Shown piece after piece: positions 13,291 through 56,651 of a DNA stretch of 64,000 nucleotides (the first letter of the stretch is position 1; each line of letters begins with the position of its first letter). Made by a program: the position numbers and the translations under genes. The stretch lies in assembly GCA_947650365.1 (NCBI GenBank), contig OX393550.1:48841594-48905593 (forward strand), given 5' to 3'. Below the pieces are notes generated by a model. It made no database searches and had not been told where the DNA came from. It saw nothing but the letters and a program-made list of their open reading frames with translations. The stretch is from Chamaelirium japonicum. Lineage: Eukaryota > Streptophyta > Magnoliopsida > Liliales > Melanthiaceae.

Positions 13291-13330
13291 TCTTCTATAT
13301 AACAAGGGATGTCGGTTTTGTCCTGACTAT

Positions 13331-13944
13331 TGTGGGGGGAAATTTCCGAGCCGCCTTGATCGGGAACCCCGTCCCACATCCTTGATTGAATATGGACGGT
13401 TTGTAGAGTTAGAGAGATGGGAGAATAGATAGAGAGAGTGAAGAGTGATGACACAGGGATTGGTGACGGAGTTCGGTCTTACGATCTACGTCTCCGGACG
13501 AGAGGTGTCACCTGATCTTCCCTATAATTTGAGTAAATGAGGGGTGAGCGTTCTCTTGGCAGGCCAAGAGAAGCTTCGTACAGTGGGGTTGCACGGAGCA
13601 ACTAGAAGAGAACAAGAAGGGGAGAATTGAGCTCTAGCACTTGCTCGGGAATCCTCCTCCTCTGATTGAAATGACCAACCCCTTTTCTGAATGCCTTGGG
13701 GGTCCTTTTATAGCGTAGGCACGTGCTCGATATGGCAGTGATGACGTGGCGATAATGACGTGGCACTGGTTCTGGGCCTCCTTGCTGGGCCTTTATTGGG
13801 CCGTTGTTCGGGCCCAATAAGGGGGAGGGCTTGATCTGCGAGCCCCGTAGAGTGGGCCCATGAGACCGGGCGGGCTTACCCACTTGGGCCGTTGCGCGGG
13901 CCCATGCCGCTCTGATCCGGTCTGGTACAATTTTTGCACCCACA
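13331..13944 (-). repeat. 3' LTR of the gypsy-like element
   Basis: 614 bp. Read on the minus strand it starts TGTGGGTGCAAAAATTG and ends TTTCCCCCCACA. It matches 19816-20443 nearly base for base; the visible differences are scattered substitutions and a short GATGATGTGGCTAT-type expansion in the other copy. Confidence 0.93.
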
Positions 13945-13959
13945 GTTACCCCCTCCCAG
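13945..13959 (-). other. polypurine tract of the gypsy-like element
   Basis: On the minus strand CTGGGAGGGGGTAAC directly precedes the 3' LTR start TGTGGG, the expected position of the plus-strand primer. Confidence 0.75.
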
Positions 13960-13989
13960 TCGGGTCAGGACCCCCTGGGTCGGCTGGGA

Positions 13990-15020
13990 TTCCATGGTGC
14001 AAACGCCTTGTGGTGCGAGCCAAAAAGGTCTCGGTTTTGTATGTGGGTGTTCCCGAGAAATTAGTATGTTTCCCGACCAAGAGGACGCCGAGACCCCTTT
14101 TCCTTCTGCCGACGCCGAGACTCTTTTAGTGCGAGCCAAAAAGTCTCAGTTTTGCGAGGGGGCATTTCCGAAAACTTAGTACGTTTCCCGACCGAGAGGA
14201 CGCCGAGACCCCTCTTCCTTCTGCCGATGCCGAGACCCTTTTGGTGCGAGCCAAAAAGTCTCGGTTTTGCAAGGGGGCGTTTTCGAAGACTCGGTACGTT
14301 TCCCGACCGAGAGGACGCCGAGACCCATCTTCCTTCTGCCGACGCCGTGACCCTTTTGGTGCGAGCCAAAAAGTTTCGGTTTTGCGAGGGGGCATTTCCG
14401 AAAACTCAGTACGTTTCCCGACCGAGAGGACACCGAGACTCCTTTGCCTTCTACCGATGCCGAGACCCTTTTGGTGTGAGCCAAAAAGTCTCGGTTTTGC
14501 GAGGGGGCGTTTCTGAAGACTCAGTACGTTTCCCGACCGAGAGGACATCGAGACCCCTCTTCCTTCTGCTGATGCCGAGACCCTTTTGGTGCGAGCCAAA
14601 AAGTCTCGGTTTTGCGAGGGGGCGTTTCCGAAAACTCAGTACGTTTCCCGACCGAGAGGACGCCGAGACTCCTTTGCCTTCTGCCGATGCCGAGACCCTT
14701 TTGGTGCGAGCCAAAAAGTCTTGGTTTTGCGAGGAGGCGTTTCCGAAAACTCAGTACGTTTCCCGACCGAGAGGACACCGAGACTCCTTTGCCTTCTGCC
14801 GACGCCGAGACCCTTTTGGTGCGAGCCAAAAAGTCTCGGTTTTGCGAGGGGGCGTTTCCGAAGTCTCAGTACGTTTCTCGACCGAGAGGACGCCGAGACC
14901 CCTCTTCCTTCTGCCGACACCGAGACCCTTTTGGTGCGAGCCAAAAAGTCTCGATTTTGCGAGGGGGCATTTCCGAAAACTCAGTACGTTTTTCGGCCGA
15001 GAGGACGCCGAGACTCCCTT
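13990..15020 (-). repeat. tandem array 1, period 115 bp, about 9 copies
   Basis: GTGCGAGCCAAAAAGTCTCGG-type anchors recur at steps of exactly 115 bp (for example 14239, 14354, 14469, 14584, 14699 and 14814). Units are highly similar. The unit has few stop codons and 115 is not a multiple of three, so long spurious open frames (up to about 300 codons) run across it on both strands. Confidence 0.95.
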
Positions 15021-15039
15021 TTTTTTTGCCTTGTCTTGC

Positions 15040-16010
15040 TTCTGTTGGTGACGTCGATCTCCCCCCTCTTGGTTTTCTGATGAAACCAAGAGGTAGATTG
15101 TTGTTGATGCCGACGCACCCCCCCTCTCGGTTTTCTGACGAAACCGAGGGGGGCTGCTTGTTGATGCCGTCACACCCCCCTTACTTGGTTTTTGTGCAAA
15201 ACCGAGGGGGGGCTGCTTGTTGATGCCGACACACACCCTCTCTCGGTTTTCTGACGAAACTGAGACTTGTGCTGCTGATGGTGTGCCGTCACCCCCTCTC
15301 CACTCGGTTTTTGTGTGAAACCGATGAGGGGGGCTTCTTGTTGATGTCGACACACACCCCCTCTCGGTTTTCTGACGGAACCAAGGGGCGTGCTGCTGAT
15401 GGTGTGTCGTCATCCCCTCTCCACTCGGTTTTTGTGCAAAACCGAGGGGGGGCTGCTTATTGATACCGACATACACCCCCTCTCGGTTTTCTGACGAAAC
15501 AAAGGGGTGTGCTGCTAACGGTGTGCCGTCACCCCCTCCCCACTCGATTTTTGTGCGAAACCGAGAGGGGGCTGTTTGTTGATGCCGACACACACCCCCT
15601 CTCGATTTCTCTGACGAAACCGAGGGGTGTGCTGCTGACGGTGTGCCATCACCCCCTCCCCACTTGGTTTTTCTTTGAAACCAAGGGGGGGCTGCTTGTT
15701 GATGCCGACACACACCCCCTCTCGGTTTTCTGATGAAACCGAGGGGTGGTTGTAGCTGATGCCAACACCCCCTCCCCTCTCAGGTTTTTGCGAAACCGAG
15801 ATAGGGGGGATGCTTGTGGGGTGCTGTCACCCCCTCTCTATTTGATTTTTGTGCGAAACCGAGGGGGGGCTGCTTGTTAATGCCGACACACACCCCCTCT
15901 CGATTTTCTGACAAAACCGAGGGGTGTGCTGCTGATGGTGTACCGTCACCCCCTCCCCACTCGGTTTTTGTGCGAAACCGAGGGGGGGCTGCTTGTTGAT
16001 GCTGACACCC
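15040..16010 (-). repeat. tandem array 2, ~119-bp dimers of ~59-bp hairpin units
   Basis: About 16 half-units, 57-62 bp apart, each contain a short inverted repeat such as CTCGGTTTTCTGACGAAACCGAG. Half-units alternate between loop types TTTTCTGACG and TTTTTGTGCG, so the higher-order period is about 119 bp. C tracts and TGCTTGTTGATGCCGACA spacers separate them. Confidence 0.93.
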
Positions 16011-16740
16011 CATTATTGGGGCTGCTAGAAGAGGCCAAAAAGTGTCGGTATTGAAAATAGTATATTTTTTGAATTTTAGCCACATCTGAAACCGACACTT
16101 TTTCAGTCATATTCCTAAAACACTGGTACGCGGGGTTGTCGGCGAGGGATAACGATATACTTGAGAGGGCTTCTTAGAGATAATCTAGGATGACACCGCG
16201 AGATGGCCAGCCAGTCTTCACCCAATGTACTACCGCACCTGGTTACTGTATTCACCAGGTACTACGGTCATGTGAGGGTGTTGACTTGGCTAGGATCAAG
16301 GAAGCACCATTTTATCTCGTGTTTCGATAGATTTTTCACCCACCCTACTATTTACTTATCGCTTGTTCACCCATTGTAGGCCACTCTTTTCATGATAAAA
16401 ACTGTCAGGGGACCCGCTGTGTTGGGAAAACACCATCTAGGAACGAAGGAGAATGTTTGCGCTCCTCCTATGCCACATATTGAGGATTCGGACAGTGGCT
16501 TTGATGGCGATCTCAGGCCGTTAAGGCCTTTTACGGACGAAGATCATGAGGAACCCCCCGTCGGCTGCACCAGTGTGGAGACACGCTGATAGAGTTAGAC
16601 CGACCACCCCCTAACCGGTTTGGAACCGTCAGTCGTCGAGAAAAGGTGATAGCCAGTGACAGTCTGATGCTTGGACCTGAGTGACAAGACTAAGCTTGGA
16701 CTTTTGATCGAATGCCAATACGTCGGCGATGACGTTATGG
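16011..16740 (-). other. spacer between arrays 2 and 3
   Basis: Unique-looking sequence. An inverted repeat AAAAAGTGTCGGT (about 16038-16050) / ACCGACACTTTTT (about 16091-16103) echoes the AAAAAGTCTCGGT core of array 1. One 65-codon + strand frame (16392-16589) has no recognisable similarity. Confidence 0.6.
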
Positions 16741-17325
16741 ACTTCGTCTTTATATGCCAAGGGTAGGGCATTGGGTTTGTAGAGTGCTGAGGTATCGGTC
16801 GCCTCAGCTTATGTCTTCGAGTACCAAGGGCAGGGCCTTGGGCTTATAGATTATCGAGGCATTGGTCACCTCGGACTTTATCGTCGAGTGCCAAGGGCTG
16901 GGCCTTGTGCTTGTTGAGTGCCATGGCGTTGGTCGCCTCGGACTTTGTCTTCTAGTACCAAGGGCTGGGCCTTGGGCTTGTAGAGTGCCAAGGCATTGGT
17001 TGTCTCGGACTTTGTCTTCGAGTGCCAAGGGCTGGGCCTTGGGCTTGTAGAGTGCCGAGGCGTTGGTTACCTCGAACTTTGTCTTTAAGTGCCAAGGGTA
17101 GAGCCTTGGGCTTGTAGAGTGCCGAGGTGTTGGTCGCCTCGGACTTTGTCTTCGAGTGCCAAGGGCTGGGCCTTGGGCTTGTAGAGTGCCGAGGTATTGG
17201 TCGCCTCGGACTTTGTCTTCGAGTGCCAAGGGCTGGGCCTTGGGCTTGTAGAGTGCCGAGGCATTGGTCGCCTTGGACTTTATCTTTTGGGTGCCAAGGA
17301 TGTCTCCTTGAACTTGGTGCATGTC
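16741..17325 (-). repeat. tandem array 3, period 67 bp, about 8.7 copies
   Basis: CCAAGGG recurs at 16757, 16824, 16891, 16958, 17025, 17092, 17159 and 17226, a constant 67-bp step, then at 17294. Unit core: GGGCCTTGGGCTTGTAGAG. Copies in the right half are almost identical; the outer ones are diverged. Confidence 0.96.
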
Positions 17326-17387
17326 AAAGCGGCGATGCCTACCTTGGACTTATTCTCATCGCCTCGGATGAGTATAGTTGATATTTT

Positions 17388-18114
17388 AGCTTGACCTGAA
17401 TTGTCAGGAGCATTTTTATTGGACTTTCGCCTTGAAAGGGCGTAGCTAAATTACCTTCGAGCTTCCGACTTGAATGGGCAGAATCAAAGGTCTTTGGTTG
17501 ACCTAGGTTGCCAGGAGCTTTTTATCGGACTTTAGCCTCGAGAGGGCGTAGCCGAATTGCCTTCGAGCTTCTGACTTGAATAGGCGGAATCGAAGGTCTT
17601 TGGTTGACCTGGGTTGCCATGAGCCTTTTTATCAGACTTTTAGCCTCGAGAGGGCATAACCGAATTGCCTTCGAGCTTCCGACTTGGATGGGCGAAATCG
17701 AAGGTCTTTGATTGACCTGGGTTGCCAGGAGCCTTTTTATCGGACTTTAGCCTCGAGAGGGCGTAGCCGAATTGCCTTCGAGCTTCCGACTTTAATAGGT
17801 GGAATCTAAGGTCTTTGGTTGACCTGGGTTGCCAAGAGCCTTTTTATTGGACTTTAGCCTTGAGAGAGCGTAGCCGAATTGCCTTCGAGCTTTCGACTTG
17901 AATGGGCGGAATCGAAGGTCTTTGGTTGACCTGGGTTGTTAGGAGCCTTTTTATCGGACTTTCACCTTGAAAGGGCATAGCCGAATTGCCTTCGAGCTTC
18001 CAATTTGAACGGGCGGAATCGAAGGTCTTTGGTTGACCTGGGCTACCAGGAGCCTTTTTATCGGACTTTAGCCTCGAGAGGGCGTAACCGAATTACCTTC
18101 GAGCTTCCGACTTG
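17388..18114 (-). repeat. tandem array 4, period 107 bp, about 6.8 copies
   Basis: The anchor TTTTTATCGGACTTT recurs at about 106-108 bp steps (near 17413, 17519, 17626, 17734, 17841, 17948 and 18055). Unit core: GCCTTCGAGCTTCCGACTTG. The array begins directly where gag loses similarity, so gag's C-terminus has been cut or overrun by it. Confidence 0.95.
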
Positions 18115-19675
18115 TAGAGGTTGGGTGGCCATAGCTGCGATGGAACTCACAGTAGGCTATCGTATCTCCCGCCTGGTCAGAATTTGGAGGGAGAGGCTGT
18201 GGCCACTTGCAAAAGGGATCGTTCTGCAAATAGACGAAGATGTCTTCACTGGAGGTGTTCAGCTCAGTGAATACCCTTTGCTCCCTTGGAGTTCGCCTCT
18301 TCCCTGCTGGAAGGGACTTCGGATCTTCATTGTATCTTTTGGCTTGTACCTTTTGGTCGGATGCAACATTGGCAGACTTCTTGTAGTGTGCATCCCTTGG
18401 GGATTCGTCAGCCTTCCTGTGTCGCGAGTCGCGAGGTTCGCGTGGCTCGCGCAACTTTCTGGCTCGCTGGTTGTCCTTCACATCTATCTCCCGCTGCACG
18501 CGTTTGAACATTGCCTCAGAGGAGCTCGGAGGATGTCGGATAAAATCAGTATAGACATGGAGTTCTGGTCGGATGACATTCTGGAATGCCAACATAATAG
18601 CCTCCTCATTTTGGTAACGGCCAGTGAGCTCAGAATGCTCATTGCGAAACCTGGTTGTGAAGCTCCTCAGGGATTCATCGGAGCCCATCTTTAGCCGGTA
18701 AAGAGTATCCAGCTTATTTTCTGGCTTCAGGTTAAGCCGATAATGATCCATGAAGAGTTCCGCCAGTTCTTCGAAAGTAGCCACCGCACCGGTGGGCAAT
18801 GTGTGGTACCAATCGAGGGAAGGCCCCTCGAGGCTTCCCGCAAACATACGGCAAAGAACATGGTTCTCATACTCGTATGGCGTCAGGGCCTGCTTGTAGG
18901 CTAGGATATGGAGAGCTGGGTCTCCCTTGATGCAGTTGAACTTGGGCAGACTTGGTGTTCGCCAACCCACAGGAAAAGGGGTTGCGAGCACCTCGGGATG
19001 AAGAGGCCCCGCTGAGGCGATTAATAGCCTGCGATCTTGATGGCGGCGTCCTACATCGGTGGTTTGCCTTCGTCGGTTGAGTAGCTCATGTGCATCTGAC
19101 GTTCTTGCATGCGAGTGAAAGGGGTGTCCAGTGGACCCCGTTGATTCAGGCGACCTCTCTCGACGGTGGCTTGGAGCGCCATCGATGTTAAGACGATCCC
19201 ACACCGTTTGTTTAGGTGCTTGCGTGGATGCCTGACGCTTTTTGGCATAAACCCTCCTTGGTTCTTCGAGGTGATGACTCGCAGCTGGGCCAGTCTTCAA
19301 TGGGCCTTCAGTCGCAGCGGGAGAGTTGAGGATCATAACCCCCGCCCTCTCAGCTGCCTTCTTCAAGGAGTCTTTCTTTTGTTCGAGGGCCGCATTCTTC
19401 TTGAGGAGATTTAGCAGCTAGAAGTCAGCAACCGAGATCTCGTATGTAGCCTAAGGCTCGCTCCCTTGAATAGCGTGTTCTTTGCCAGATCGACGCCTCG
19501 GGGATGGTAGGTCTCGCCGATCGTTGTGCCCTTCTGGATGGCTGCCTTGCGGCCCCAGCCGCTCCCGAACATTTCTTCGGTTGGCTGCAACCGAGACTTC
19601 TTGTTCTTCTTCGATCAGCATATCGTTTGTTCGTTCAGCACCCGCCTTTGGTGGGTTGGTACTGGCCTTCACCAT
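18068..19675 (-). pseudogene. Ty3-gypsy gag with two in-frame stops
   Basis: The 432-codon frame 18068-19366 contains a retrotransposon gag domain (PSLPKFNCIKGDPALHILAY, FAGSLEGPSLDWYHTLP, FEELAELFMDHYRLN, LRSFTTRFRNE). Upstream in the same frame, TAG codons near 19422 and at 19451-19453 separate it from an N-terminal piece that starts MVKASTNPPKAG at 19675. A C-terminal YCEFHRSYGHPTSTS keeps part of the usual YCxFHxxxGHxTxxC motif but has lost the last cysteine. It lacks a protease and any pol continuation. Gag packages element RNA; with these stops the copy could supply it only in part. Confidence 0.88.
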
Positions 19676-19795
19676 CGAGCGTGTTGATGTCGGCGTGATG
19701 AAGGTGTTGAGGTTGATTTGGAGGAGGACTTGTGGCTCGTCACCACAAGTTGAATAGGAGTCGGTAGAGGTATGGGTAAGACCTCTATCGATATC

Positions 19796-19813
19796 CCACA
19801 GACGGCGCCAAAG
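19796..19813 (-). other. primer-binding site of the gypsy-like element
   Basis: On the minus strand ATCTTTGGCGCCGTCTGTGG follows the 5' LTR end CCCCCCACA. TGGCGCCGTCTGTGGG is a sequence I recognise at this position in many plant Ty3-gypsy and large non-autonomous elements. Confidence 0.8.
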
Positions 19814-19815
19814 AT

Positions 19816-20443
19816 TGTGGGGGGAAATTTTTGAGCCGCCTTGATCGAGAACCCCGCCCCACAGCCTTGATTGAATATAGACGGTTTGTAGAGTTAGAGA
19901 GATGGGAGAATAGATAGAGAGAGTGAAGAGTGATGACACAGGGATTGGTGACGGAGTTCGGTCTTACGACCTATGTCTCCGGGCGAGAGGTGCCACCTGA
20001 TCTTCACTATAATTTGAGTAAATGAGGGGTGAGCGTTCTCTTGACAGGCCAAGAGAAGCTTCGTACAGTGGGGTTGCACGGAGCAACTAGAAGAGAACAA
20101 GAAGGGGAGAATTGAGCTCTAGCACTTGCTCGAAAATTCTCCTCCTCTGATTGAAATGACCAACCCCTTTTCTGAATGCCTTGGGGGTCCTTTTATAGCG
20201 TAGGCACGTGCCCGATATGGCAGTGATGATGTGGCTATGATGATGTGGCTATGATGATGTGGCACTGGTTCTGGGCCTCCTTGCTGGGCCCTTATTGGGC
20301 CGTTGTTCGGACCCAATAAAGGGGAGGGTTTGATCTGCGAGCCCCGTAGAGTGGGCCCATGAGACCGGGCGGGCTTATCCACTTGGGCCGTTGCGCGGGC
20401 CCATGCCGCTCTGATCCGGTCTGGTACAATTTTTGCACCCACA
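19816..20443 (-). repeat. 5' LTR of the gypsy-like element
   Basis: 628 bp, TGTG...CACA termini, near-identical partner of 13331-13944. Compared with that copy it carries a small tandem expansion near 20225-20260. The TSD ACTAT follows at 20444-20448. Confidence 0.93.
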
Positions 20444-20448
20444 ACTAT

Positions 20449-56322: not shown

Positions 56323-56651
56323 ACTAATGAAAGTTACAAATCGCCTTTTACCTAACCTAGAGGTTTCAGAATTTGATGAAACTTGGTGGAGATGCTTTCT
56401 ATGGCAAGTTGATCATTCTCACCAAAAATCATCAAATTCTATAACCTCTAGGGGTATCAAATATGTTATTCAACTTAACGGTTAAAATGAACGGTCGATA
56501 AAACTTCTAACATTTGATGCCTCTAGAGGTTATAGAATTTGATGATTTTTGGTGAGGATGATCAACTTGCCATAGAGAGCATCCCCACCAAGTTTCATCA
56601 AATTCTGAAACCTCTAGGTTAGGTAAAAGATAATTTATAACTTTCATTAGT
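56323..56651. mobile_element. foldback element, 140-bp arms, 49-bp spacer
   Basis: Left arm 56323-56462 and right arm 56512-56651 are inverted repeats with about ten mismatches. Shared blocks include CCTAACCTAGAGGTTTCAGA and ATCATCAAATTCTATAACCT. A smaller palindrome, AAACTCAAGTTCAC/GTGAACTTGAGTTT, lies at 56123-56160 just to the left, and a GTGAACTCAAGTTCAC copy lies at about 56304-56319. Non-coding; an RNA through it would fold into a long hairpin. Confidence 0.9.

Follow-up and report, generated by a model that had tools for sequence, protein, structure and literature searches.

A gag-bearing LTR retrotransposon of Chamaelirium japonicum with four tandem arrays and no recognised pol, and its cargo-bearing sister copies

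Array-bearing and gag-only elements

Tandem arrays between pol and the 3′ long terminal repeat (LTR) were reportedly described in Tat-lineage elements by Macas in 2009, and the TR-GAG elements are said to go back to Chaparro in 2015. Here, we report on a complete LTR retrotransposon on the minus strand at positions 13331–20443 of a 64-kb stretch of the Chamaelirium japonicum genome (the window, which lies on the contig that we number C2), which carries gag and four tandem arrays and in which no pol was found. We consider it quite probable that this element belongs to a large family of non-autonomous Ty3/gypsy elements (most probably Retand-like, from the plant Tat lineage) whose enzymes are borrowed in trans and whose arrays are passengers in an inherited 3′ region.

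A survey of Retand elements (Vicient 2025, PMC11963269) reported that about half of the recent clusters have arrays, which for the most part lie between pol and the 3′ LTR, with 0–3 arrays per cluster, units of 8–100 bp and an average LTR of 635 bp. The window element resembles these Retand and Ogre elements in its arrays before the 3′ LTR, its family-specific units, their variable numbers, its 5-bp duplication and its LTR size (614 and 628 bp). However, the clusters of that survey keep most of pol and nearly all carry Transposase_28, neither of which was found here, and four arrays with units of up to 119 bp exceed what it lists (PMC11963269). A long array-bearing region before the 3′ LTR is common in Tat elements, whose features, including an additional RNase H (aRH) in pol, we took from PMC6317226, but it is not exclusive to them.

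Five minisatellite families were described in soybean Gmr9/GmOgre (Mogil 2012, PMC3305785), which shares with the window element the presence of several such families downstream of the coding region and in variable unit numbers, whereas its repeats are interleaved rather than set in four blocks and the typical GmOgre carries gag-pol. In another study, two satellite patterns were explained by gag-bearing elements that had lost pol and kept their arrays, and a proposal is cited there that arrays arise through abnormal strand transfer (PMC7004042). The Lathyrus sativus Ogre copies by the FabTR-54 and FabTR-57 arrays, in which a pol deletion brings gag near the arrays, are similar to the present element, but they were deduced from read statistics, and the accessible part of that paper describes no fixed four-array order or cargo slot (PMC7004042). 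TR-GAG elements are likewise gag-only LTR elements, presumably mobilised in trans, although arrays and host cargo do not enter the definition as given there (PMC10552921); the window element, with LTRs and gag and no pol found, agrees with them in make-up. A review covers gene capture by LTR elements, including maize Bs1 (PMC13317346), and gene fragments have been reported from 425 maize elements (PMC2774510). Host gene segments inside LTR elements are the point of likeness with these maize elements, and the difference is that here several cargoes occupy a single slot between two arrays of one pol-less family.

The first-pass annotation of this DNA, made from its letters alone, regarded several arrays in series as unusual and took them to have replaced pol. 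The former is not supported, as soybean GmOgre has five families (PMC3305785), Retand clusters have as many as three arrays (PMC11963269) and Ogre copies without pol keep theirs (PMC7004042): because published Tat, Ogre and Retand elements have arrays at this place, several types each, and pol-less relatives, the puzzle of the four arrays is mostly explained. The latter is not supported either, the arrays occupying the usual Tat 3′ region and pol being simply absent.

Structure of the element

That the element is complete, as originally proposed, was borne out by LTRs with TG...CA ends, a 5-bp duplication ACTAT at either side, a primer site and a polypurine tract. In element order it consists of the 5′ LTR, the primer site, gag, the four arrays, the purine tract and the 3′ LTR, and its tail runs from the 107-bp array through a 91-bp linker, the 67-bp array, a 0.73-kb spacer and the 119-bp array to the 115-bp array. 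The arrays were delimited with Tandem Repeats Finder (TRF), the LTRs by alignment and the purine tract by reading the sequence. The features, by window position, are:

13326..13330, no strand, target-site duplication ACTAT, left
13331..13944, minus strand, 3′ LTR (element sense)
13945..13957, minus strand, polypurine tract, GGGAGGGGGTAAC on the element strand
14006..15022, minus strand, 115-bp array, 8.8 units, mean unit divergence 10.1%
15045..16011, minus strand, 119-bp array, each unit a pair of ~60-bp hairpins, 15 hairpins in all (TRF and hairpin count)
16020..16754, minus strand, spacer, domain-free in the Pfam search, 89–94% identity to six other copies
16755..17299, minus strand, 67-bp array, 8.1 units, mean unit divergence 15.6%
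17300..17390, minus strand, 91-bp linker, 91–96% identity to six other copies
17391..18114, minus strand, 107-bp array, 6.8 units, mean unit divergence 11.9%
18068..19366, minus strand, gag open reading frame (ORF), Pfam Retrotrans_gag, its 3′ end overlapping the 107-bp array
19367..19793, minus strand, leader, primer site to gag
19794..19810, minus strand, primer binding site, TGGCGCCGTCTGTGGGA on the element strand, 5 bp from the LTR
19816..20443, minus strand, 5′ LTR (element sense)
20444..20448, no strand, target-site duplication ACTAT, right

The gag ORF matches Retrotrans_gag (PF03732, E 8.7e-8). A Pfam search of 20 open pieces, out of 83 listed (at least 45 amino acids), detected neither a pol nor a Transposase_28 domain, and the 20 took in all pieces of the spacer at 16118–16689 and few of those in the arrays; on both gag and pol the earlier reading was supported. 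Since no domain of protease, reverse transcriptase, RNase H or integrase was seen in these 20 pieces, the element is regarded as a non-autonomous derivative rather than an autonomous Ty3/gypsy member, the Ty3/gypsy-type marks being its TG...CA LTRs, duplication, primer site, purine tract and gypsy-type Gag. No second LTR or gag copy was found within the window, the window gag had no match in a phage collection, and the primer-site sequence had none in a text search of the literature.

The LTRs had been called near-identical, which is too strong, as 591 of 614 aligned positions are identical and the alignment has 14 gap columns besides the 23 differences, 21 of which are transitions. The resulting Kimura two-parameter distance (K2P) of 0.039 corresponds, at the usual plant substitution rate of 1.3e-8, to an insertion age of ~1.5 million years, which is probably overestimated because of cytosine decay.

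In the TRF output, the 119-bp array occupies 15101–15817 with 6 units, and related hairpin units reach beyond this row to about 15045–16011; within each 119-bp unit, two hairpin units of ~60 bp form a dimer. The figure of about 4 kb of arrays suits the tail (4.1 kb) and not the arrays themselves, which sum to about 3.25 kb, the rest including the spacer and the linker. Because the best score in 12 comparisons between consensus units was matched by 10 of 300 shuffled pairs, the four arrays are taken to be unrelated in sequence, in agreement with the initial description of four distinct arrays. Within the spacer, positions 16037–16103 have 13-base inverted ends, AAAAAGTGTCGGT and ACCGACACTTTTT, possibly a remnant of a small DNA transposon or another hairpin.

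Sister copies in the genome

A search of the 1.52-Gb genome with the LTR gave 3495 candidates, of which the best 40 were scored (41 matches), so the counts are lower bounds. From the 41 rows, stretches for 13 groups were taken (L009–L028), which yielded 13 other copies with part of the tail; L018, L020 and L026, which consist chiefly of nested or adjacent DNA, do not enter this number as separate copies. The order 107-bp array, linker, 67-bp array, spacer and 119-bp array beside gag sequence recurs in 12 sister copies, three of which are interrupted by nested DNA. Both questions of the first reading, namely whether other insertions share the array order and whether they differ in unit number, are thereby answered in the affirmative: the 107-bp array ranges from 4.3 units (L012) to 12.9 units (L028) in eight copies, and the 67-bp array from 4.4 units (L012 and L028) to 21.5 (L013) and about 24 across two adjacent TRF rows in L011, being fragmented in L009. 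The unit of the last array is 115, 143, 162 or 88 bp depending on the copy (nine copies scanned).

In all 12 copies in which both were found, gag and the 107-bp array are at most 267 bp apart, which leaves no room for pol between them, and no intact pol stands at this place in any of the 12. Nine of them have an extra 239–267 bp before the 107-bp array, which was read in L013 as the end of gag and a short tail. The gag sequence is near full in eight copies, partial in L011 and L012, and a remnant in L015 (50 bp) and L022 (61 bp). Perfect 5-bp duplications flank five of the eight other copies compared. The LTRs of L013, L014 and L015 differ by 3, 2 and 3 mismatches, respectively, over 612–615 positions, so these pol-less copies were inserted recently.

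Some sister copies hold further mobile DNA. A nested element in one copy (L025:7048-9999 and L026:207-7647) has gag, reverse transcriptase, two RNase H-type domains, integrase and antisense plant mobile domain ORFs, the extra ORF being like those reported for Ogre elements (PMC6317226). A Transposase_21 (tnp2) element splits the 67-bp array of L017 (5494-7125). Oppositely oriented LTR copies lie a few to about 200 bases apart at L015:1-67, L016:8690-8741 and L028:66-1500, as if insertions cluster.

Gag and the candidate helper

The end of the window gag is truncated by the 107-bp array, whereas L013 retains a further stretch with the run CRKLKHHIEDLIQEGRLDGYL, which we take to resemble the tail of a Tat Gag. 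Among nine copies with near-full gag (L011, L012, L015 and L022, with partial gag, being excluded), the frame is open across 416–417 codons in five, and the window gag differs from the eight others by 0.68–0.78 synonymous substitutions per site (dS) with a ratio of nonsynonymous to synonymous substitution (dN/dS) of 0.14–0.19. The window copy agrees with six sister copies at 89–96% identity in its LTRs, linker and spacer and at 84–94% in its leader, whereas its gag reaches only 80–85%; it is thus either a mosaic or a member of a subfamily with a different gag.

Window-type gag occurs at 91–100% identity in 40 scored places, the window included, out of 3641 candidates. Sixteen of these 40 listed places run straight into a listed protease region (40 places listed of 676 candidates), and a retroviral-type protease was read in two copies (Asp_protease_2, E 0.0025; motif ILIDTGCSVDIMF); the motif and its place behind gag agree with this identity. 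Of the 40 gag places, six, including the window, have a listed 115-bp array (40 places among the matches listed) within 12 kb, and none of these six is among the 16 linked to protease. A pattern across the primer site and the LTR end occurs 1052 times in the genome, and its reversed control not at all. Junction distances were taken from the first 100 of these places, all on contig C1, one of the six C1 gag places lying beyond that part. Five of the eight C1 protease places have a primer/LTR junction at 1671–1699 bp, which is the window spacing allowing for strand, and two of the six C1 gag places have one at 431 bp, exactly as in the window. The gag and protease relatives, read as far as the protease, are thus a likely candidate for the helper of the window family.

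Host gene segments between the last two arrays

The region between the 119-bp array and the last array was surveyed in the 14 copies that have both (the window, L009–L017, L021, L024, L025 and L028). An insert of 1.05–2.57 kb is present in ten of them and absent from the window, L009, L011 and L017. Eight inserts have common flanks of a few hundred bases, whereas that of L024 has none of this sequence and that of L010 has little in common with any but L021; the centres are mostly different, those of L013 and L015 being the same. Host genes exceeded the Pfam cut-off in three of the ten inserts (19 pieces searched): an Exostosin_GT47 segment in L016:5867-6805 (E 5.7e-12), EF hands of a calmodulin-like protein in L028:8683-9258 (E 5.3e-31) and a PTR2/NPF transporter in L025:1794-2330 (E 9.8e-34). 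All three are in the sense of the element, which has a chance probability of one in four.

Donor-like genes were found for each. The calmodulin-like gene at C3:86807000-86808500 matches over 654 bp at 96.5% without gaps, from codon 19 into the 3′ flank, the cargo being without the first 18 codons of the donor; the NPF gene at C1:132502200-132504200 matches over 669 bp at 95.7%, again gapless, as one open stretch plus 3′ flank; and the GT47 gene at C6:37761400-37764000 matches over 213 bp at 88%, an internal part of the gene being missing from the element. An apparent GT47 exon, a 176-bp match of 93% present at three places, was rejected, as in the two places read it looks like a dispersed repeat whose flanks are alike.

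Among 40 listed matches to the calmodulin-like query, 19 (including L028) carry the whole insert and the element-side junction at 94–100%, and nine further listed matches carry a shorter form, so this cargo multiplies with the element. Over 174 codons, cargo and donor differ by 7 synonymous changes and by 11 changes in codons with another residue, and nothing here indicates that the cargo is maintained as a functional protein. Two of the three cargoes end in the donor 3′ flank, with no intron loss or poly(A) tail to prove an RNA route. The calmodulin-like cargo of L028 ends in an A run like an mRNA tail, and capture of a polyadenylated message was considered and rejected: because the donor-like gene on C3 has AAAAAAACAAG there and the match continues through the end of GTC, the run is genomic and shows no mRNA route. 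In the donors as read, no intron falls within the NPF or the calmodulin-like segment, which is compatible with either RNA or DNA capture.

A pol-less, array-bearing family with a fixed cargo slot from the 119-bp array to the last array, in which different host gene segments were repeatedly taken up in element sense and then multiplied with the element, is a reading that we put forward tentatively, and the repetitive 3′ region may bring frequent template switching and hence gene uptake. No such family was met among the titles and abstract openings listed from the open-licence literature. The cargo slot is the new part, array-bearing pol-less elements being known already.

Alternative explanations

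The first-pass annotation also suggested a structural role of the RNA, and the arrays might indeed serve the RNA through hairpins that act as packaging, dimerisation or pausing signals. The 119-bp unit folds beyond its shuffles (z −4.0 in element sense and −4.3 on the opposite strand) and the 67-bp unit does so weakly (z −2.8 and −2.2), the hairpin core of the 119-bp array is present in all 14 copies examined (175 units), and the array order is conserved in 12 copies. However, the 115- and 107-bp units are shuffle-like in element sense (z −0.06 and −1.5), the opposite strand folds equally strongly, and none of eight base pairs in the 175 hairpins shows compensatory change above independence (Fisher p 0.77–1), the variants being mostly C-to-T or G-to-A; we therefore regard an RNA role as improbable. 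An expansion of the arrays in the window copy during its last reverse transcription, one form of the other suggestion made at first pass, is very improbable and largely refuted. Unit numbers vary among copies and variant units alternate inside arrays, as such an expansion would have it, but the same arrays are present in many other copies, and the units of the 115-, 67- and 107-bp arrays diverge by 10–16% as against 3.7% (23/614) between the LTRs of the same copy, from which the arrays are most likely older than the insertion, though both figures may be raised by cytosine decay.

That the window copy is an autonomous element which decayed and lost its pol once inserted is extremely improbable, and for the family this reading is refuted: gag and protease relatives with a matching primer junction exist, but pol is also missing between gag and the 107-bp array in the 12 other copies, and the three recent copies with LTRs 2–3 mismatches apart indicate that the pol-less form itself multiplies. 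We give next to no credence to arrays created by assembly error. Tandem arrays are error-prone and the exact unit counts may be off, but the same units in the same order stand at independent places on many contigs with differing unit numbers; because many separate copies carry them, the arrays are not an artefact of the window copy, nor are they confined to it.

Several observations weigh against a Tat-like family that borrows its enzymes from the candidate helper. Tat membership is most probable from the layout and the gag type, but Transposase_28, in Retand an antisense ORF of the array-bearing region, was found neither in the pieces searched in the window nor in 19 cargo-region pieces of ten sister copies, where decay or loss is possible. 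The array order is not universal, as L010 is without gag, the 107- and 67-bp arrays and the spacer. L015 has only about 50 bp of gag, yet it is among the recent copies, which argues that an element's own Gag is not needed in cis, and the eight other copies with near-full gag, compared among themselves (dS 0.09–0.27), give a weaker dN/dS of 0.22–0.76. As for the helper, the protease matches are below the Pfam family cut-offs and the exact junction is absent at three of the eight C1 protease places. The pol-bearing partner asked about at first pass may be represented by the gag and protease relatives with the same primer/LTR junction spacing, but in a genome search for RVT_1 none of the 150 listed of 20098 candidates lay, by eye, at the helper places.

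Proposed propagation and significance

For the non-autonomous family as we infer it, LTR-driven RNA would be packaged in Gag particles, the window copy encoding Gag and no enzymes, and reverse transcription and integration would be carried out by a pol-bearing relative whose Gag is nearly identical and whose primer site and LTR end agree with those of the family. Sister copies without most of gag would borrow Gag too; copies without gag also seem to move, as in the case of L015. The arrays would be a hypervariable 3′ region inherited by the family, passengers rather than a substitute for pol, whose unit number may shift through slippage or unit-to-unit template switching in reverse transcription, or through unequal recombination. 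Copy choice between packaged RNAs could account for the mosaic copies, and perhaps also for the host gene pieces that sister copies carry ahead of the last array, which could enter by a switch to a packaged cellular RNA.

The observation is sound. What deserves pursuit is the cargo slot: a non-autonomous, array-bearing family with such a fixed slot would be of interest, if true. The family brings into reach how a pol-less element maintains a selected Gag while borrowing its enzymes, how quickly the 3′ arrays turn over from one dated insertion to another, and whether host gene segments use a 3′ region rich in repeats as a landing strip. Because one genome supplies recent copies, genes resembling the donors and a likely helper, these questions can be addressed largely through sequence comparison.

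Other features of the window

Outside this element, the window contains a 662-amino-acid ORF with a copia-type reverse transcriptase (RVT_2) at 480–2468, and two inverted 140-base arms at 56323–56651, which are 94% complementary and separated by 49 bases.

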